Source: Methanooceanicella nereidis
GTDB taxonomy: Archaea; Halobacteriota; Methanocellia; Methanocellales; Methanocellaceae
Length of the DNA stretch: 64,000 nucleotides
Assembly: GCF_021023085.1 (NCBI RefSeq)
Contig: NZ_PGCK01000001.1
Location: 1 to 64,000 of the forward strand
Reading direction: 5' to 3'
The notes beneath the pieces were generated by a model. That model was not told where the DNA came from. It ran no database searches and worked only from the letters and a program-made list of their open reading frames with translations. The position numbers were made by a program, and so were the translations under genes. Below, in pieces: positions 7,934 to 30,154 of this stretch. Numbering within the stretch: position 1 is the stretch's first letter; every line of letters begins with the position of its first letter.

Positions 7934-8207
7934 ACCACAAAGCGCACAAAGGCGAACAAGGAACACCAAACTGCTAACCACAAAGCGCACAAAGGCGAAC
8001 AAGGAACACCAAACTGCTAACCACAAAGCGCACAAAGGCAAACAAGGAACACAAAGAACTTTTTTAGAAGATAATCATATTAATAAAAAAAATTTTGTGT
8101 ACCTTAATCGCCTTCGTGCGCTTAGTGGTTAACAAATTAGTGGACCTTAATCGCCTTCGTGCGCTTAGTGGTTAACAAATTAGTGGACCTTCGAGCCATT
8201 AGTGGTG
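7934..8207. repeat. Intergenic inverted repeat with 43-bp units (copy 1)
   Basis: The left arm has two identical 43-bp units (7934-7976 and 7977-8019) plus a partial third from 8020, beginning ACCACAAAGCGCACAAAGGC. The right arm has two identical 43-bp units (8101-8143 and 8144-8186), containing GCCTTCGTGCGCTTAGTGGT, which are imperfect reverse complements of the left units. The centre (about 8051-8105, GAACTTTTTTAGAAG then A-rich then TTTTGTGTACC) matches the cores at 39.6, 42.4 and 52.8 kb. It lies between convergent genes (ferredoxin and ftr). It has no ORF. Confidence 0.85.
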
Positions 8208-24437: not shown

Positions 24438-25103
24438 TTGGAAACTGTAGATTTCGTGTGGGCATTTATAGCCGGCGTGGTGAGCATAACGTCTCCGTGT
24501 GTGCTTCCCCTGTTACCGGGAGTACTGGCATATTCGACACATAACAATAAGCTTACTCCGCTGGCTATAGTTTTTGGACTGACTTTGACTTTTACGACTT
24601 TGGGAATAGTATCAGCGGTTTTTGGCTCGATATTCATATACTATATTGATTATATCAAGTTCTTATCGGGCATCTTCATACTGATCATGGGCTTATATCT
24701 TTTATTGGAGCCTGTCGAGAACCTTATACTCCGCATGTGGCAAAAAGTGCCTTTTTCAAGGGTATCGCTATCATCGGCGGAGGAAGCGGGCCTGATCGGA
24801 GGCGTACTTCTGGGCATAAGCCTCGGGATAGTATGGATGCCATGCATCGGCCCCATACTGGCATCGATCCTGGTCATAGTGGCACAGCAGGGAGAGACAC
24901 TTTACGGAGCATCCCTGCTTATGGTATATTCGGCAGGCCTCGGAGTCCCGATGCTGGGCATCGCCTACATGTCGAACATACTATCGGGAAGGGTGAGGGC
25001 CGCTTCAAAATACTCCATGATCGTCAGAAGGCTGGCAGGCATAGTGCTGGTATTACTCGGCCTTTATTATATATCGGAGCTAAGGTACCTTTTCGGGATC
25101 TAA
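24438..25103 (+). CDS. ccdA: CcdA/DsbD-type membrane electron carrier
   Basis: The 221-aa six-helix protein moves reducing equivalents across the membrane to exported thioredoxins. The two active Cys residues are in ITSPCVLPLLPG (helix 1) and VWMPCIGPILASI (helix 4), each with the family Pro residues. The TTG start follows GAGGATAG. It forms an operon with the exported thioredoxin. The last 24 bp overlap the convergent helicase gene. Confidence 0.9.
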   Translation: METVDFVWAFIAGVVSITSPCVLPLLPGVLAYSTHNNKLTPLAIVFGLTLTFTTLGIVSAVFGSIFIYYIDYIKFLSGIFILIMGLYLLLEPVENLILRMWQKVPFSRVSLSSAEEAGLIGGVLLGISLGIVWMPCIGPILASILVIVAQQGETLYGASLLMVYSAGLGVPMLGIAYMSNILSGRVRAASKYSMIVRRLAGIVLVLLGLYYISELRYLFGI

Positions 25104-28100
25104 CGCGGAAAGTATAGCGTCCCCGAACTTGTCCACCCTTGACTGGCCGATACCATATATGCCTAAAAGCTCCTCTTTATTTTTAGGCTTTTTAGCGATA
25201 AGGTCGTAGATGGTCCTATCGTTAAATATCGTATACGGAGGCGAGTTCATCTCCTTTGAAAGCGAGGTCCGGAGAGCCCTTAAAGCTTTCTCGATATCTA
25301 CATCGATCCCCGATAGCTCCGGCTTAATCGCCGGTCCCGCCCTTTTTGATGCGGGACTTTTGACGCTCTCTTTTGGCTTGCTTTTATCTCCGGGACCATT
25401 TTCCGAAAATTTAGCATTACCGTCCTCAAACGGTGTATTGATAAGCGCTACCTGCCTGAATGATATTGATAGCTTCTCTTCGCCATTTTCCGCGACTATC
25501 CTCACGTTATTGGCGGGGTTAAAGCTGAACTGGCTGATCCTGGCCTGTCCCATATAGTTCCGCGGTTTAACGCCGGAATCTCCATGGACCACGACCGTTG
25601 AGTCCGGCTTTATCAGCACTATGGCATTTCCTTCGTACAGGTCTTCGGTCTTACCGGTATACTCGACGCAGGCCTCTCCTGCGATAACATAATATGTGTT
25701 CTGACGCATGTTAACAACACCTTCCATGTCTACCGTTTTGTTCGGAGCCTTATCGGTGGCGGCTCCCAATGTCGTTTTCCATTCGTCTACCGGCAACATG
25801 GCGTCGGTGTAATCGACAGATACCTTGATATGCACCGGGCCGTCCCCCGCAGGTAATCTGACCGGTACTTTCTTATTGTCTCCCGCGCCGATGTACATTT
25901 TTTCTTCGCATATCGTCATACCTTCGGCTTTGACCGACACTCCGATAGTGCCTGCGCCTCCGGAATTTATCAGAGATAGTTCAGACTCCCTGTTTCCCTG
26001 CGCGAAATTCCGGGATATGCCCGAAAAGTCGACCGAGATCCCTGGTAGTTTCCTTGCCGTCTCGACGATGTCGATGGCAAGGCTTCCCCTTATGCCCATC
26101 CTTATTAAGTCCTCTGGCTTTTTTTCTGCGGCATCCCTGAGCGAGCCTATTCCGCCCTTGAATAAAATGTCCAGGCTGCGATCGCCGACGCCGGGAACGG
26201 ATGCTAGCGATACTGCCTCTTCAGTGACTCCCTTGTCTATCTGGACTGACACCATCTTCACTTTACGTGAAAGCACAGGGCTGGAATATTCTTCGCAGAA
26301 CCGTGCGAACGCGCTTAACAGCCTGGAGGCGTTCTGCTTGATAGCCCATGCGTCCGACTTTAATTCGTCGGGCACGTCCCTGTTTATATACCCGTTCAGG
26401 ATAGCGCGCACTTTAGCGATGCCTCCCGGGCCGAGATCCATGCCTGCCAGAGACTTGACTGAGCCTGATTCGCCGGGCCTGGTGGCAACGTCGCTGAACT
26501 CTGCCGCCCTTGAGATGATATCCAGCACCTCGTCTGTGGATAGCCTTTCCCTGCGTGCGCATTCCTTAAACAGGAGAGATGTCTCCAGCCTGAGATAAAA
26601 GTCGGAGGTCATTACACCAAGAGGCGTAGCGGAAAGGACGCCATCGTCCTCGTTCACAAAGCCGTTCCTGACAAGGTAATCTATTTTCGTCGAGATCATA
26701 CGGTCTATGTCTGTAATACCATACGTCACTGGATCGGTCTTTGACCTGACGTATAAAAAGGTCGTCTTCAGCCAATCCGCCGCCTCGATCACGTTCTTGA
26801 CCATGCCCACGGCGATCTCGGCGTTCAGGTGCTCGGCCAGATTATACTTTAAGACGGACTCTATGGACTTTCCGCTTTTAAGGAGATCCCTGTACGCGCC
26901 TAACCGGGAATAAGGCACGATAACAAGGCCTTTACCCCGTGTATCGTATCCGGGGCGGCCTGCTCTCCCGAGCATCTGCAGAAGATCGATAGGGCTGATG
27001 TCCTTCGTTCCCGCTATCGGGTCATACATCTCGGTATCCCTGATCACGACAACTCGGGCAGGAAGGTTGACACCCCATGCCAGCGTAGAAGTCGAAACAA
27101 GTATCTTGATGCACCCTTCGCGAAAAGCGTTCTCAACAGCGGTCTTATCTTCGGACGGCAGGCCTGCGTGGTGGAAAGCAGTCCCGCACGATATGCATTT
27201 TTTTAAAGAAGGGTTGCTGACCCTGGACTTTATTTCCTGCAGCCTTCTCATCTCAGGCGGGATCAAAAAATACGGGGCGCTATTCTTACGCATGATCTCG
27301 CAAAGCTTCTCTGTCGCCTGATAGGTATCCTGCCTCGTCGATACGAATATCAAAGCCTGATGCCCGGCCGCAAGTTCATCTTTGATAAGGTCGTAGGCTT
27401 TGTACAGCCGGATATACTTATTAAGGAACTCGTTATCTTTCGGGCTATAGGGGATGACTGACGTGTCCAGTTCGACTGGCCTGTAAGAATTATCAAAAGT
27501 AAGTGTATTCTCTTCCGAAGCCCCAACCCACTTTGCGACATCGCCGATGTTAGGCATAGTGGCGCTCAATGCGACTATACGCAAAGGCTGTTTCATGAAC
27601 GAGCTGATACGTTTCATCCTGCTTATCACGGCTTCAAGGGCCCCTCCCCTGCTGTCTGAATCGAGCAGATGCACCTCGTCTATGATGACCAAAGCGACGT
27701 CCTTGACGAAAGAATAGCGCTCCTGCCGGTATTTTCTGGTGGCGGAATCCCATTTTTCAGGCGTGGTGATGATCACGTCCGCAGACTTTGCCTCAAAAGG
27801 CGAAAGCTCTCTTTCACCTGTAACGACGTATACCTTAAATCCAAGGCTTCCGAGCACATGCTTCCATTCTGATTCCTTTTCGTTCGTAAGCGCCCTGAGA
27901 GGAGCTATAAAAAGCACTTTACCCTTATCGGCTTTGCCAAGCTCTTTTACCATAGCTGCTTCTGCCAGGACGGTCTTACCGCTCGCGGTCGGTGCCGATA
28001 CGACGACGTTACCGTCGGAATTCAATATGACAGGCACGGCTCTCGATTGCATGCGATTAAAGTCTTTGAACGGGAACATCGGAACGAATCTTTTATCGAT

Positions 28101-28121
28101 GATGTCCGTAACGGATAGCAA
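25080..28121 (-). CDS. Ski2-family DNA helicase fused to extra DNA-binding modules
   Basis: The 1013-aa protein begins with a superfamily 2 helicase core: Walker A SAPTASGKT (residues 42-50), IAPLRAL, TTPEKWD, DEVH (148-151), SATMP (186-190), STSTLAWGVN and QMLGRAGRPG. A winged-helix/ratchet part and helix-hairpin-helix repeats (SVPGVGDRSLDIL) follow, as in Hel308. After about residue 700 come a beta-rich region, a segment like the N-terminal domain of NucS (VVVHGDSGVKPRNYMG), a low-complexity linker and a C-terminal HRDC domain (LLGIYGIGQSRVDKFG). It likely acts at stalled or branched DNA. The added modules are my reading by eye. Confidence 0.82.
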   Translation of the reverse strand: MLSVTDIIDKRFVPMFPFKDFNRMQSRAVPVILNSDGNVVVSAPTASGKTVLAEAAMVKELGKADKGKVLFIAPLRALTNEKESEWKHVLGSLGFKVYVVTGERELSPFEAKSADVIITTPEKWDSATRKYRQERYSFVKDVALVIIDEVHLLDSDSRGGALEAVISRMKRISSFMKQPLRIVALSATMPNIGDVAKWVGASEENTLTFDNSYRPVELDTSVIPYSPKDNEFLNKYIRLYKAYDLIKDELAAGHQALIFVSTRQDTYQATEKLCEIMRKNSAPYFLIPPEMRRLQEIKSRVSNPSLKKCISCGTAFHHAGLPSEDKTAVENAFREGCIKILVSTSTLAWGVNLPARVVVIRDTEMYDPIAGTKDISPIDLLQMLGRAGRPGYDTRGKGLVIVPYSRLGAYRDLLKSGKSIESVLKYNLAEHLNAEIAVGMVKNVIEAADWLKTTFLYVRSKTDPVTYGITDIDRMISTKIDYLVRNGFVNEDDGVLSATPLGVMTSDFYLRLETSLLFKECARRERLSTDEVLDIISRAAEFSDVATRPGESGSVKSLAGMDLGPGGIAKVRAILNGYINRDVPDELKSDAWAIKQNASRLLSAFARFCEEYSSPVLSRKVKMVSVQIDKGVTEEAVSLASVPGVGDRSLDILFKGGIGSLRDAAEKKPEDLIRMGIRGSLAIDIVETARKLPGISVDFSGISRNFAQGNRESELSLINSGGAGTIGVSVKAEGMTICEEKMYIGAGDNKKVPVRLPAGDGPVHIKVSVDYTDAMLPVDEWKTTLGAATDKAPNKTVDMEGVVNMRQNTYYVIAGEACVEYTGKTEDLYEGNAIVLIKPDSTVVVHGDSGVKPRNYMGQARISQFSFNPANNVRIVAENGEEKLSISFRQVALINTPFEDGNAKFSENGPGDKSKPKESVKSPASKRAGPAIKPELSGIDVDIEKALRALRTSLSKEMNSPPYTIFNDRTIYDLIAKKPKNKEELLGIYGIGQSRVDKFGDAILSALDPEKVP

Positions 28122-28435
28122 GCCTATTTCTGCCAGGATGATCCCCCTTTAGTATGCACTTTTAATGTACATGCCGGTAGATATATGATTCTATTCAAGG
28201 GCTGGCAATATAATAATTTTGGTTGTTTTCTTTTTTATGAAAAATAGTTTAGAGATATCAAATCATAAGCCAAATCTAATTAGAAAATTGAAACAAAACT
28301 TATAAATAGACTAAAACTAAATTTAGGGTTAATATACGGTATTTTAGCAATGAATTGTGGGGTTTGCTTAAAAGCCATTCAGAATAGGAATGACATCGAT
28401 ATACCGTAAAAATATCCTGCCGAGAGGAGTTAAAC
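28122..28435. other. A/T-rich intergenic region
   Basis: No gene is seen. The region contains upstream elements for both the helicase (minus) and the small membrane protein (plus), including a TATA-like CTTATAAATAG at about 28299-28309. GAATTGTGGGG-like words are present but no clear repeat. Confidence 0.4.
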
Positions 28436-28630
28436 ATGGAATATGAAATGTTGCTTTTATTCATAAGCTTTGGATGGTTCATGAGCGTAACCGTCATATT
28501 TCTCATGTACGTGAGGATGAGGCAGCTCTCCGAAGAGCTAAGGAAGGTTAAGGACGAGATAGAGCTGTCAGATGACGAATTTCACGGACTTGAAAGAGGT
28601 ATAACGGATTTCAAGAAGATAGAGATATAG
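28436..28630 (+). CDS. Small single-pass membrane protein
   Basis: The 64-aa protein has one hydrophobic N-terminal segment (LLLFISFGWFMSVTVIFLMYV) and a charged, probably coiled-coil C-terminal half (RQLSEELRKVKDEIELSDDE). GAGGAG lies 7 bases before the ATG. It is followed closely by the promoter of the hairpin-array RNA. No family is recognised. Confidence 0.6.
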   Translation: MEYEMLLLFISFGWFMSVTVIFLMYVRMRQLSEELRKVKDEIELSDDEFHGLERGITDFKKIEI

Positions 28631-28640
28631 ATCACTGGCA

Positions 28641-28650
28641 TTTATAAAAT
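28641..28650 (+). promoter_or_regulatory. TATA box for the hairpin-array RNA
   Basis: TTTATAAAAT at 28641-28650 is a good archaeal TATA box, placed about 25-30 bases before the first hairpin near 28672-28685. It lies just after the stop of the small membrane protein gene, so the RNA has its own promoter. Confidence 0.55.
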
Positions 28651-28671: not shown

Positions 28672-29127
28672 ACATTATAGTCACGGCATGATGCCTGGCA
28701 GGCAGGGAGATGCCTTAAAGCAAATGTCTTGCGGCAGACATCAATAAACCCGCAGCTCCGACCCGGGAGCCATAAACCGGGCACCAGGGAGATGGTATAA
28801 AGCCGGGTCAACGCGGCGGACCTCATAAACGCCACCCTTTCATGAGGAAGGATAAACCCCATACTCGGAAGTCGAGTTTAAACTGCTTCGGTGAGGGCGA
28901 TCACCCGTAAAAAGCAAAGTCCGTGCAGGACTCTAAAGCGCATACGTGGGGAGACACGTCTAAAAAGCAAACGCGGATCGCAGGCGTCTAAAATGGCTTA
29001 AAGTAGGGAGCTACTATAAAGCAAAGTCTCCGGACTCTAAACAAATAAGGCCTATATCGACGTTGATAGGGGCATATCGGGCGGGATAACCGGAACCCTG
29101 CCCGATAGCCCCGTAAACGTTGTTTTT
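28672..29127 (+). ncRNA. Candidate structured RNA: tandem hairpin array
   Basis: This ~450-nt G/C-richer stretch has no ORF (UAA in every linker) and about sixteen short hairpins. Stems with clear pairing include 28701-28714, 28724-28741, 28755-28770, 28783-28796, 28863-28877, 28890-28905, 28918-28932, 28944-28959, 29002-29015 and 29025-29036, plus a long terminal one at 29069-29112. Hairpin centres repeat every 25-30 nt and are joined by a UAAA word. Three loops are the same hexamer GGGAGA, with GGGCGA and GGGAGC variants. A TATA box precedes it and a T run (29122-29127) follows. It matches no RNA class I know. Confidence 0.7.
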
Positions 29128-29412
29128 CATAAAGTTTAAGATCCTGACCTGCTATAATTAAAAGGCCGACTTATTGCTGTGTGCCGGTTGTTGTTGATAT
29201 AAATGTCCTTTTTTAAGTATTGAAATAGTGATCTTTAATGCTGTATGCGGACATAAGAGCGGGGATCGTCGACAGCAAGGGGATCTACCGGTGAGCTAAT
29301 ACAAAAGGCGCTTATAAAAAATCACCGCAGAATTATTTATGACACACGTTATGGTATTTTAAAAATCGTACATATAAAAAAAGATGGCCGACCGTTATGG
29401 CCGGTGATCCGC
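29128..29412. other. Intergenic region after the hairpin RNA
   Basis: No gene is supported. The segment 29240-29300 is G/C-richer than its surroundings and contains GATC-bounded inverted pieces, but I cannot fold it into a convincing structure. A TATA-like GATATAAATG at about 29195 could drive a short transcript. Confidence 0.3.
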
Positions 29413-29985
29413 TTAACTGAGGATACCCTCAAAGCGCTCGTCTATGAAATCGGCATATGTAGGTATTTCCGAGAGAGCGGGATTGCCTCTCCTTTTAATG
29501 TAAAGGCGGTGTTCATATTCCAGTTTGGTCTTTTCCTTTGCGATCTCTTCCGCGAATTTATCCAGCCTCTCCTTGAACTCATATATTGACAGAAGCATGA
29601 ACCTCTCGAAATCCTCCTCATTCTTGCAGGACTTTGATAGCCCGGGATTGTTTTCAAGAACGCGGAAGAACAGCGCCACGAACGCGTTATACTGGTCAGT
29701 CGTCCTGAAAGTGATCCTCTTAGCCTGCGTGATGCCGCCGACTTTCTTAAGTACGCTGACGTTGTTATTTTGTTCCAGCTCTTCTGCGATGTCAGTAACG
29801 CTCTTTTGCATCAGCGGATAAGCCACCGTCGATAATTTATATACCAGGACCTCGGAAAGCAGCCCGGACTCTGCAAAAGCGTTGACATCCTCTTTTATCA
29901 AAGACTGAAGAAAATGATCGGCAATTTGTACAAGTATGACCTTATCGTTTGCATTTTCCTTTTTTTCAGATTTTTTTGCGCCCAT
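29413..29985 (-). CDS. Hypothetical soluble protein
   Basis: The 190-aa product is mostly helical and charged. It has a Lys-rich start (MGAKKSEKKENAND), a middle reading KKVGGITQAKRITFRTTDQY and a long helix (YEFKERLDKFAEEIAKEKTK). The start at 29985 follows GGGAGGAATATA; an upstream in-frame start at 30021 is weaker. I do not recognise the family. RTTDQYNAFVALFF-like parts recall archaeal transcription-associated helical proteins, too weakly to assign. Confidence 0.6.
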   Translation of the reverse strand: MGAKKSEKKENANDKVILVQIADHFLQSLIKEDVNAFAESGLLSEVLVYKLSTVAYPLMQKSVTDIAEELEQNNNVSVLKKVGGITQAKRITFRTTDQYNAFVALFFRVLENNPGLSKSCKNEEDFERFMLLSIYEFKERLDKFAEEIAKEKTKLEYEHRLYIKRRGNPALSEIPTYADFIDERFEGILS

Positions 29986-30154
29986 TATATTCCTCCCAAT
30001 ACAACATAAATTCACTATCAAAACATTAACTGATAATACAGGGTGTAATGTAGATATAATATTGCTTCGGGTTAAAAAGAGTTTTGAAAGTGATCAGGAA
30101 TTGAATGATAAAATTAAAAAAAGATGATGATAAGGATCGGAGCTCTGACCCTGA

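Follow-up and report, generated by a model that had tools for sequence, protein, structure and literature searches.

The window, by which we mean the whole 64,000-nt stretch of Methanooceanicella nereidis DNA that was analysed, carries at positions 28672-29112 (plus strand, ends approximate) a region of ~440 nt that almost certainly specifies a structured RNA not described before. The region lies between a small ORF of 64 aa for a membrane-type protein (28436-28630, plus strand) and a convergent 202-aa gene (29413-30021, minus strand) whose product matches no known family. Three relatives were compared: G001 (3,179,916 bp), which we take to be Methanocella arvoryzae, M. paludicola (G002), and Methanocella sp. 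PtaU1.Bin125 (G003). The genome of M. paludicola is 2,957,635 bp long (PMC3146512). Gene order is the same in the window, G001, and G003, namely, Trx, ccdA, small ORF, RNA, convergent gene, and purF, and in all three the small ORF is directly upstream of the RNA. At the M. paludicola site, ~120 bp separate a Hel308-type helicase gene from the convergent gene, and neither the small ORF nor the RNA is present. The helicase gene sits between ccdA and the site in the window and in M. paludicola and is not adjacent to the RNA in G001 or G003. In the window, its product (25080-28121) has extra HRDC and NucS N-terminal PH-like domains on the C-terminal side.

The RNA region is devoid of a conserved ORF, as the initial annotation had stated. 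All six frames carry stops in each of the three genomes, and a protein-coding reading was dropped because every frame is interrupted. No plus-strand gene follows the RNA, the gene at 29413-30021 being convergent, and therefore the RNA is probably not the leader or riboswitch of a following gene. The protein encoded by the upstream small ORF belongs to no Pfam family and gives a weak FtsL-like score (E 0.056). Its paralogs occur in all four Methanocellaceae genomes (G000:C12:35660-35842; G001:C1:2318730-2318909; G002:C1:2448474-2448659; G003:C69:15041-15223) and, in the flanking sequence inspected, adjoin a gene that appears MinD/ParA-like. An inverted repeat, TACGGTAT...ATACCGTA, lies at 28335-28415, presumably within the 5′ untranslated region of the small ORF.

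The RNA is specific to a part of the Methanocellaceae. A DNA search recovers the element in G001 and G003 with E about 1e-42 and an identity of 74-75% and finds nothing in M. paludicola or in 56 other genomes. Between the window and G001, identity is 73% over the RNA, 69% over the adjacent coding sequence, and 45-52% in the flanks. Two covariance models, R1 built on the module and R2 on units 8-13, were searched in 394 Halobacteriota genomes; they return only the three Methanocellaceae, apart from a few R1 matches judged to be chance. Three R1 chance matches fall inside a long ORF (G028 and G037) or stand without a surrounding array (G089). Viral contigs searched for the RNA give no match, and a search of genome contigs with the small ORF returns PtaU1.Bin125 only. 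The RNA is present as a single copy per genome, and no extra module copies resembling mRNA sites are found in the genomes, the weak matches inspected lying inside long reading frames. This single-locus, family-restricted distribution gives no clue to the targets.

Sixteen small structures make up the RNA, namely, H0 (28684-28697) to H14 (29056-29067) and a long G/C hairpin, H15 (29069-29112). Unit centres are mostly 24-31 nt apart, with a step of ~27 nt. The initial annotation had described about sixteen hairpins in a row with UAAA at a constant phase, and this regularity is far beyond chance. Within the window sequence by itself, perfect 4-bp hairpins form an in-phase chain of at most 14 members, against a mean of 1.8 and a maximum of 5 in 300 dinucleotide shuffles; when TAAA is required within 4 nt downstream, the chain has 13 members, against a mean of 0.3 and a maximum of 1. 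TAAA occurs 14 times in the RNA region (3.8 expected), and the folding z-score of the window RNA is -3.9. G001 and G003 carry every unit from H0 to H14 at the same positions and spacing, and the stems and the UAAA phase are likewise kept. H0 is a 5′ hairpin, CGGCATGATGCCTG, which reads CGGACATATGTCCG in G001 and CGGACTCGTTCCG in G003, and H14 is a short hairpin, ATCGACGTTGAT, replaced in the relatives by TCAACGTTGA, with an A-U to G.U change on the plus strand.

Selection on structure, which the initial annotation had argued from well-paired but divergent stems, is supported by comparison both between genomes and among modules. The alignment folds ~5 SD better than shuffled alignments (z about -5), and no shuffle equals it. 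H12 has AGTA/TACT stems in the window and G003 and ACCA-GGGAGA-TGGT in G001, that is, two compensatory pairs; H7 shows an A-U to G-C change between genomes, and at the outermost position of H8 a C-G pair in G001 corresponds to T-A in G003 and to a broken pair in the window. With a comparative set of three sequences from two genera, two of the three belonging to one genus, covariation between genomes is present but limited (n=3). Pair counts between genomes understate the stems of units 3 and 6, because the MAFFT registers are imperfect there. The repeated modules have varying stems and constant loops and linkers. In an alignment of paralogous modules (four hairpin pairs in three genomes), the covariation score is 0.747 versus 0.252 in shuffles, with slid controls at 0.05-0.16, and doubly changed cells number 30 versus 9.6 in shuffles. 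The structure of the RNA is thus well supported; its function we infer.

The array had been drawn as a row of plain hairpins. The regular chain holds, but units 2, 3, 5, 6, and 7 are, as predicted from their complementarity, H-type pseudoknots. In the units that lack a GGGAGA loop, the loop can pair with the part of the linker that directly follows UAAA, and this pairing covaries among genomes. Unit 2 (28724-28754) combines stem 1 ATGTCT/AGACAT and loop 3 CAAUAAAC with a stem 2 that is TGCGG/CCGCA in the window, CCATGCC/GGCATGG in G001, and GCCGA/TCGGC in G003. In unit 3 (28755-28781; stem 1 GCTC/GAGC, loop 3 CAUAAA), stem 2 is CCCGG/CCGGG in the window, GCCC/GGGC in G003, and just 3 bp (GCC/GGC) in G001. 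Unit 5 (28806-28833; stem 1 GGTC/GACC, loop 3 UCAUAAA) has GGCG/CGCC in the window versus ACGG/CCGT in both relatives. Stem 2 of unit 6 (28836-28862; stem 1 CCTT/AAGG) is ATGAGG/CCCCAT in the window, a weak pairing that includes one A.C, and reads GCGGA/TCCGC in G001 and GCGG/CCGC in G003. Unit 7 (28863-28889; stem 1 ACTC(G)/(C)GAGT, loop 3 UUAAACUG) pairs GAAG/CTTC in the window, CGGC/GCCG in G001, and TCAGC/GCTGA in G003. Over these five units, the stem 2 duplex energy has a z of -7.7 against shuffled linkers, and permutation of linkers among genomes gives P=0.0005. The corresponding values for nine units (all except H1, H8, H10, and H12) are z -7.3 and P=0.012, and these are the more conservative figures because the five core units were picked after inspection. 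H9 (28918-28932; AGTCC-GTGCA-GGACT), H11 (28971-28987; ACGC-N9-GCGT), and H13 (29025-29036; AGTC-TCCG-GACT) were also considered as pseudoknots, for which no genome-level support is found (P 0.49); all three are retained as hairpins.

The same folds emerge from a search blind to the units, in which stems 1 and 2 had 4 bp, loop 1 0-5 nt, loop 2 0-3 nt, and loop 3 4-9 nt. On the plus strand, the three genomes yield 5, 3, and 4 independent H-type pseudoknots, against ~0.4 in shuffles; on the minus strand, the numbers are 1, 0, and 0. Of the five found in the window, two are off-phase. Loop 3 is A-rich in all the in-phase pseudoknots, with sequences such as CAUAAA, UUAAACU, UAUAAAC, and CAAAAC. 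UAAA would therefore form the A-rich loop 3 that crosses the groove of stem 1, which explains why its phase is constant. Since pseudoknots exceed chance only on the plus strand, this is the RNA strand. The minus strand was considered and rejected on these grounds and because the linkers are A-rich on the plus strand; in its favour, the stems of H9, H11, and H13 extend by G.U pairs and its folding z is similar. Inverted repeats at a regular step could also belong to the DNA itself, as protein-binding sites, an origin-like element, or single-stranded DNA hairpins. Such a DNA-level element is hardly probable at all, since the stem sequences differ between repeats and so offer no common DNA site, the interleaved pseudoknot pairing has an RNA-type geometry on one strand only, and G.U pairs occur in H2 and H14.

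Tandem pseudoknots are known from type III toxin-antitoxin systems. The solved structure of ToxI is that of an H-type pseudoknot in which A-minor contacts hold the four-pair stem 1 (PMC8860590), and such contacts over the stem 1 groove are found in type III antitoxin RNAs (PMC8860590). The array resembles ToxI and CptI in its H-type pseudoknots, which stand in tandem and have a stem 1 of four pairs, and differs from them in having 16 modules, diverged in sequence and interspersed with plain hairpins. It could accordingly be imagined as a small-RNA precursor, in which an endonuclease would cut the A-rich linkers and free pseudoknots or hairpins of ~27 nt, as ToxN does. The ToxI plan of tandem H-type pseudoknots with four-pair stem 1 and A-rich loop (PMC8860590) and the similar module step speak for this reading, which is nevertheless rather improbable: the modules are not near-identical repeats, UAAA would lie inside the fold, as loop 3, and not between folds in the pseudoknots, and no toxin-like or defence gene was recognised beside the RNA. 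No neighbour of the RNA has a toxin or defence match, and the ToxN-like family PF13958 has zero matches in the four genomes, in a search without a working positive control. Tandem Repeats Finder reports no array in the RNA region, where the unit stems differ. Elsewhere in the window, two neighbouring arrays of 43-bp tandem repeats, 98% matching, are found at 7934-8052 (2.8 copies) and 8097-8191 (2.2 copies).

The second type of module is a hairpin with the loop GGGAGA or GGGAGC, which is present in H1, H8, H10, and H12 and, in the window, also in H4. H1 (28701-28714; GGCA-GGGAGA-TGCC, then UUAAAGCAA) is invariant in the three genomes. H4 (28783-28796; ACCA-GGGAGA-TGGT) has the loop CGGCAC in G001 and G003. 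H8 (28890-28905; GGTGA-GGGCGA-TCACC, then AAAAAGCAA) has GGGAGA in both relatives, and H10 (28944-28959; ACGTG-GGGAGA-CACGT) and H12 (29002-29015; AGTA-GGGAGC-TACT) complete the set. R1 matches H1 and the stretches 28889-28937 (H8), 28943-28992 (H10), and 29000-29041 (H12). The recurrence of loops reported earlier is thereby upheld, with three GGGAGA (H1, H4, and H10), one GGGCGA (H8), and one GGGAGC (H12). GGA is carried as GGGAGA or GGGAGC by 4 of the ~16 units (H1, H4, H10, and H12), besides scattered other loops, and the GGAG loop as such is found on just 4-5 of the ~16 modules. The conserved loop is best interpreted as a tetraloop, GGAG, with G.A or G-C as its closing pair; GGAG is present in 12 of the 13 GGGAGA-type hairpins of the three genomes, the exception being the GGCG of H8 in the window. 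Directly 3′ of these hairpins stands nUAAAAGCAA. At four of the five GGAG-module positions, the loop is kept in all or nearly all genomes while the stems vary, as expected of recognition sites. Outer stems enclosing the GGAG hairpins (in the window, GCTT/AAGC) were considered and discarded, as they are not conserved.

A loop of this kind is found in the signal recognition particle. GNAR is the loop of archaeal SRP RNA helix 6 (PMC2905702), and in the SRP RNA of both M. paludicola and the window's genome this helix is tipped by GGAG (CUGGAGAG). The array might then mimic helix 6, its GGAG tetraloops binding SRP19 so as to titrate or store it. The presence of the same tetraloop at the local helix 6 tips and in 12 of 13 GGGAGA-type array hairpins is consistent with this, but the chance that it holds is very small, as the closing pair and stem are unlike those of helix 6, H8 of the window has GGCG, and loops as simple as GGAG could arise for other proteins.

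As regards expression, a TATA-like box, TTTATAAAA, is predicted at 28641-28649 (plus strand). The promoter assigned to the RNA in the initial annotation, a TATA box at 28641, corresponds to CATATAAAG in G001 and to a weaker box, CATATATTC, in G003. The annotated end, a long G/C hairpin with a T run, is conserved in its first element only: H15 has CCGGA in its loop and long CCGGA hairpins also follow H14 in both relatives, whereas the T run at 29120-29129 is confined to the window and absent from G001 and G003. In these two genomes, a T run separates the small ORF from the RNA. We favour a separate transcript, a choice made on sequence signals, because TATA-like boxes (weak in G003) precede the RNA and a T run follows the small ORF in two genomes. 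These signals count against the view that the RNA works together with the small membrane-type protein, either as its 3′ untranslated region or in a membrane-tethered complex like that of OLE RNA and OapA. The small ORF and the RNA do adjoin in all three genomes and are jointly missing at the M. paludicola site, a transmembrane-like stretch is present at the N-terminal side of the conserved protein, and OLE RNA shows that a large RNA can be part of a membrane complex. A partnership is all the same unlikely: the small protein has no recognisable RNA-binding domain, and its paralogs lie at RNA-free loci, so that the family does not need the RNA.

A multivalent protein-binding RNA is favoured because one invariant loop recurs on changing stems, as repeated protein sites would. 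A single RNA-binding protein may recognise the repeated GGAG hairpins, and the pseudoknots may act as rigid, nuclease-resistant spacers which keep these sites apart. The RNA would carry several copies of the protein, either as a CsrB-like sponge for a protein other than CsrA, titrating it from mRNAs, or as a scaffold. That it is a stand-alone, trans-acting RNA of ~440 nt whose 4-5 GGAG sites scaffold or titrate an RNA-binding protein comes close to an even chance. More tentatively, it is possible that the array represents a new archaeal class, a rod in which GGAG-loop hairpins and H-type pseudoknots alternate and which displays the sites of a dedicated protein, and the first repeat-based titrating or scaffolding RNA of such plan in Archaea. 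If the sponge or scaffold reading is true, protein-titrating RNAs would be extended to Archaea, with a different protein. The modular plan is simple and readable and Methanocella-type hosts are culturable; the predictions are a transcript of ~440 nt, a protected stem 2 in the five pseudoknots, and a protein that binds GGAG hairpins.

As a class the RNA appears new, since it falls in no Rfam family and departs in a defining feature from each of the known classes tested. To our knowledge, large structured RNAs of no known function (OLE, GOLLD, and ROOL) are mostly bacterial, and conserved archaeal ones outside the classical set are few. At the gathering score, Rfam 15 gives no match in the RNA region, and at E<=10 only MS2 and GP20-b appear, at 12.6 bits each, far under their gathering scores and at chance level; the annotation's failure to place the RNA in any class thus agrees with Rfam. 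No report of this RNA was found in a literature search of open-access papers. CsrB, of 369 nt, comes from a stand-alone gene and has hairpins in series, their G-rich loops containing GGA (PMC5027483). The array is like the CsrB/RsmZ sponge RNAs in these respects and in its length; unlike them, it has pseudoknots between the hairpins and only 4-5 loop-bearing modules, is archaeal, and has no Rfam match. A CsrA sponge was excluded, as CsrA (PF02599) is found in none of the four genomes, with positive controls. Repeated sites on an RNA are already known from CsrB and ToxI, so that, in the case of titration, the RNA would be new but its kind of task familiar. The STAXI motif consists of two or three tandem pseudoknots near ssDNA-binding or antirestriction genes (Weinberg et al. 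2010, PMC2864571); the repetition of pseudoknots is common to the array, while the gene context differs and no Rfam match is obtained here. OLE RNA is likewise a large structured noncoding RNA, and the array too adjoins a gene for a membrane-type small protein, but OLE RNA is bacterial with another fold, and its covariance model does not match the RNA. Lastly, archaeal SRP RNA helix 6 shares with the array a GGAG tetraloop at a hairpin tip; it is a single copy within SRP RNA, its stems and closing pair differ, and the array has no SRP match in Rfam. As a minor observation on SRP RNA itself, M. paludicola has a second, short match to the archaeal SRP RNA model at G002:C1:1136540-1136586 (E 1.9e-5), which covers model positions 182-228, the helix 8 region, and is separated by ~7 kb from the complete gene for SRP RNA.
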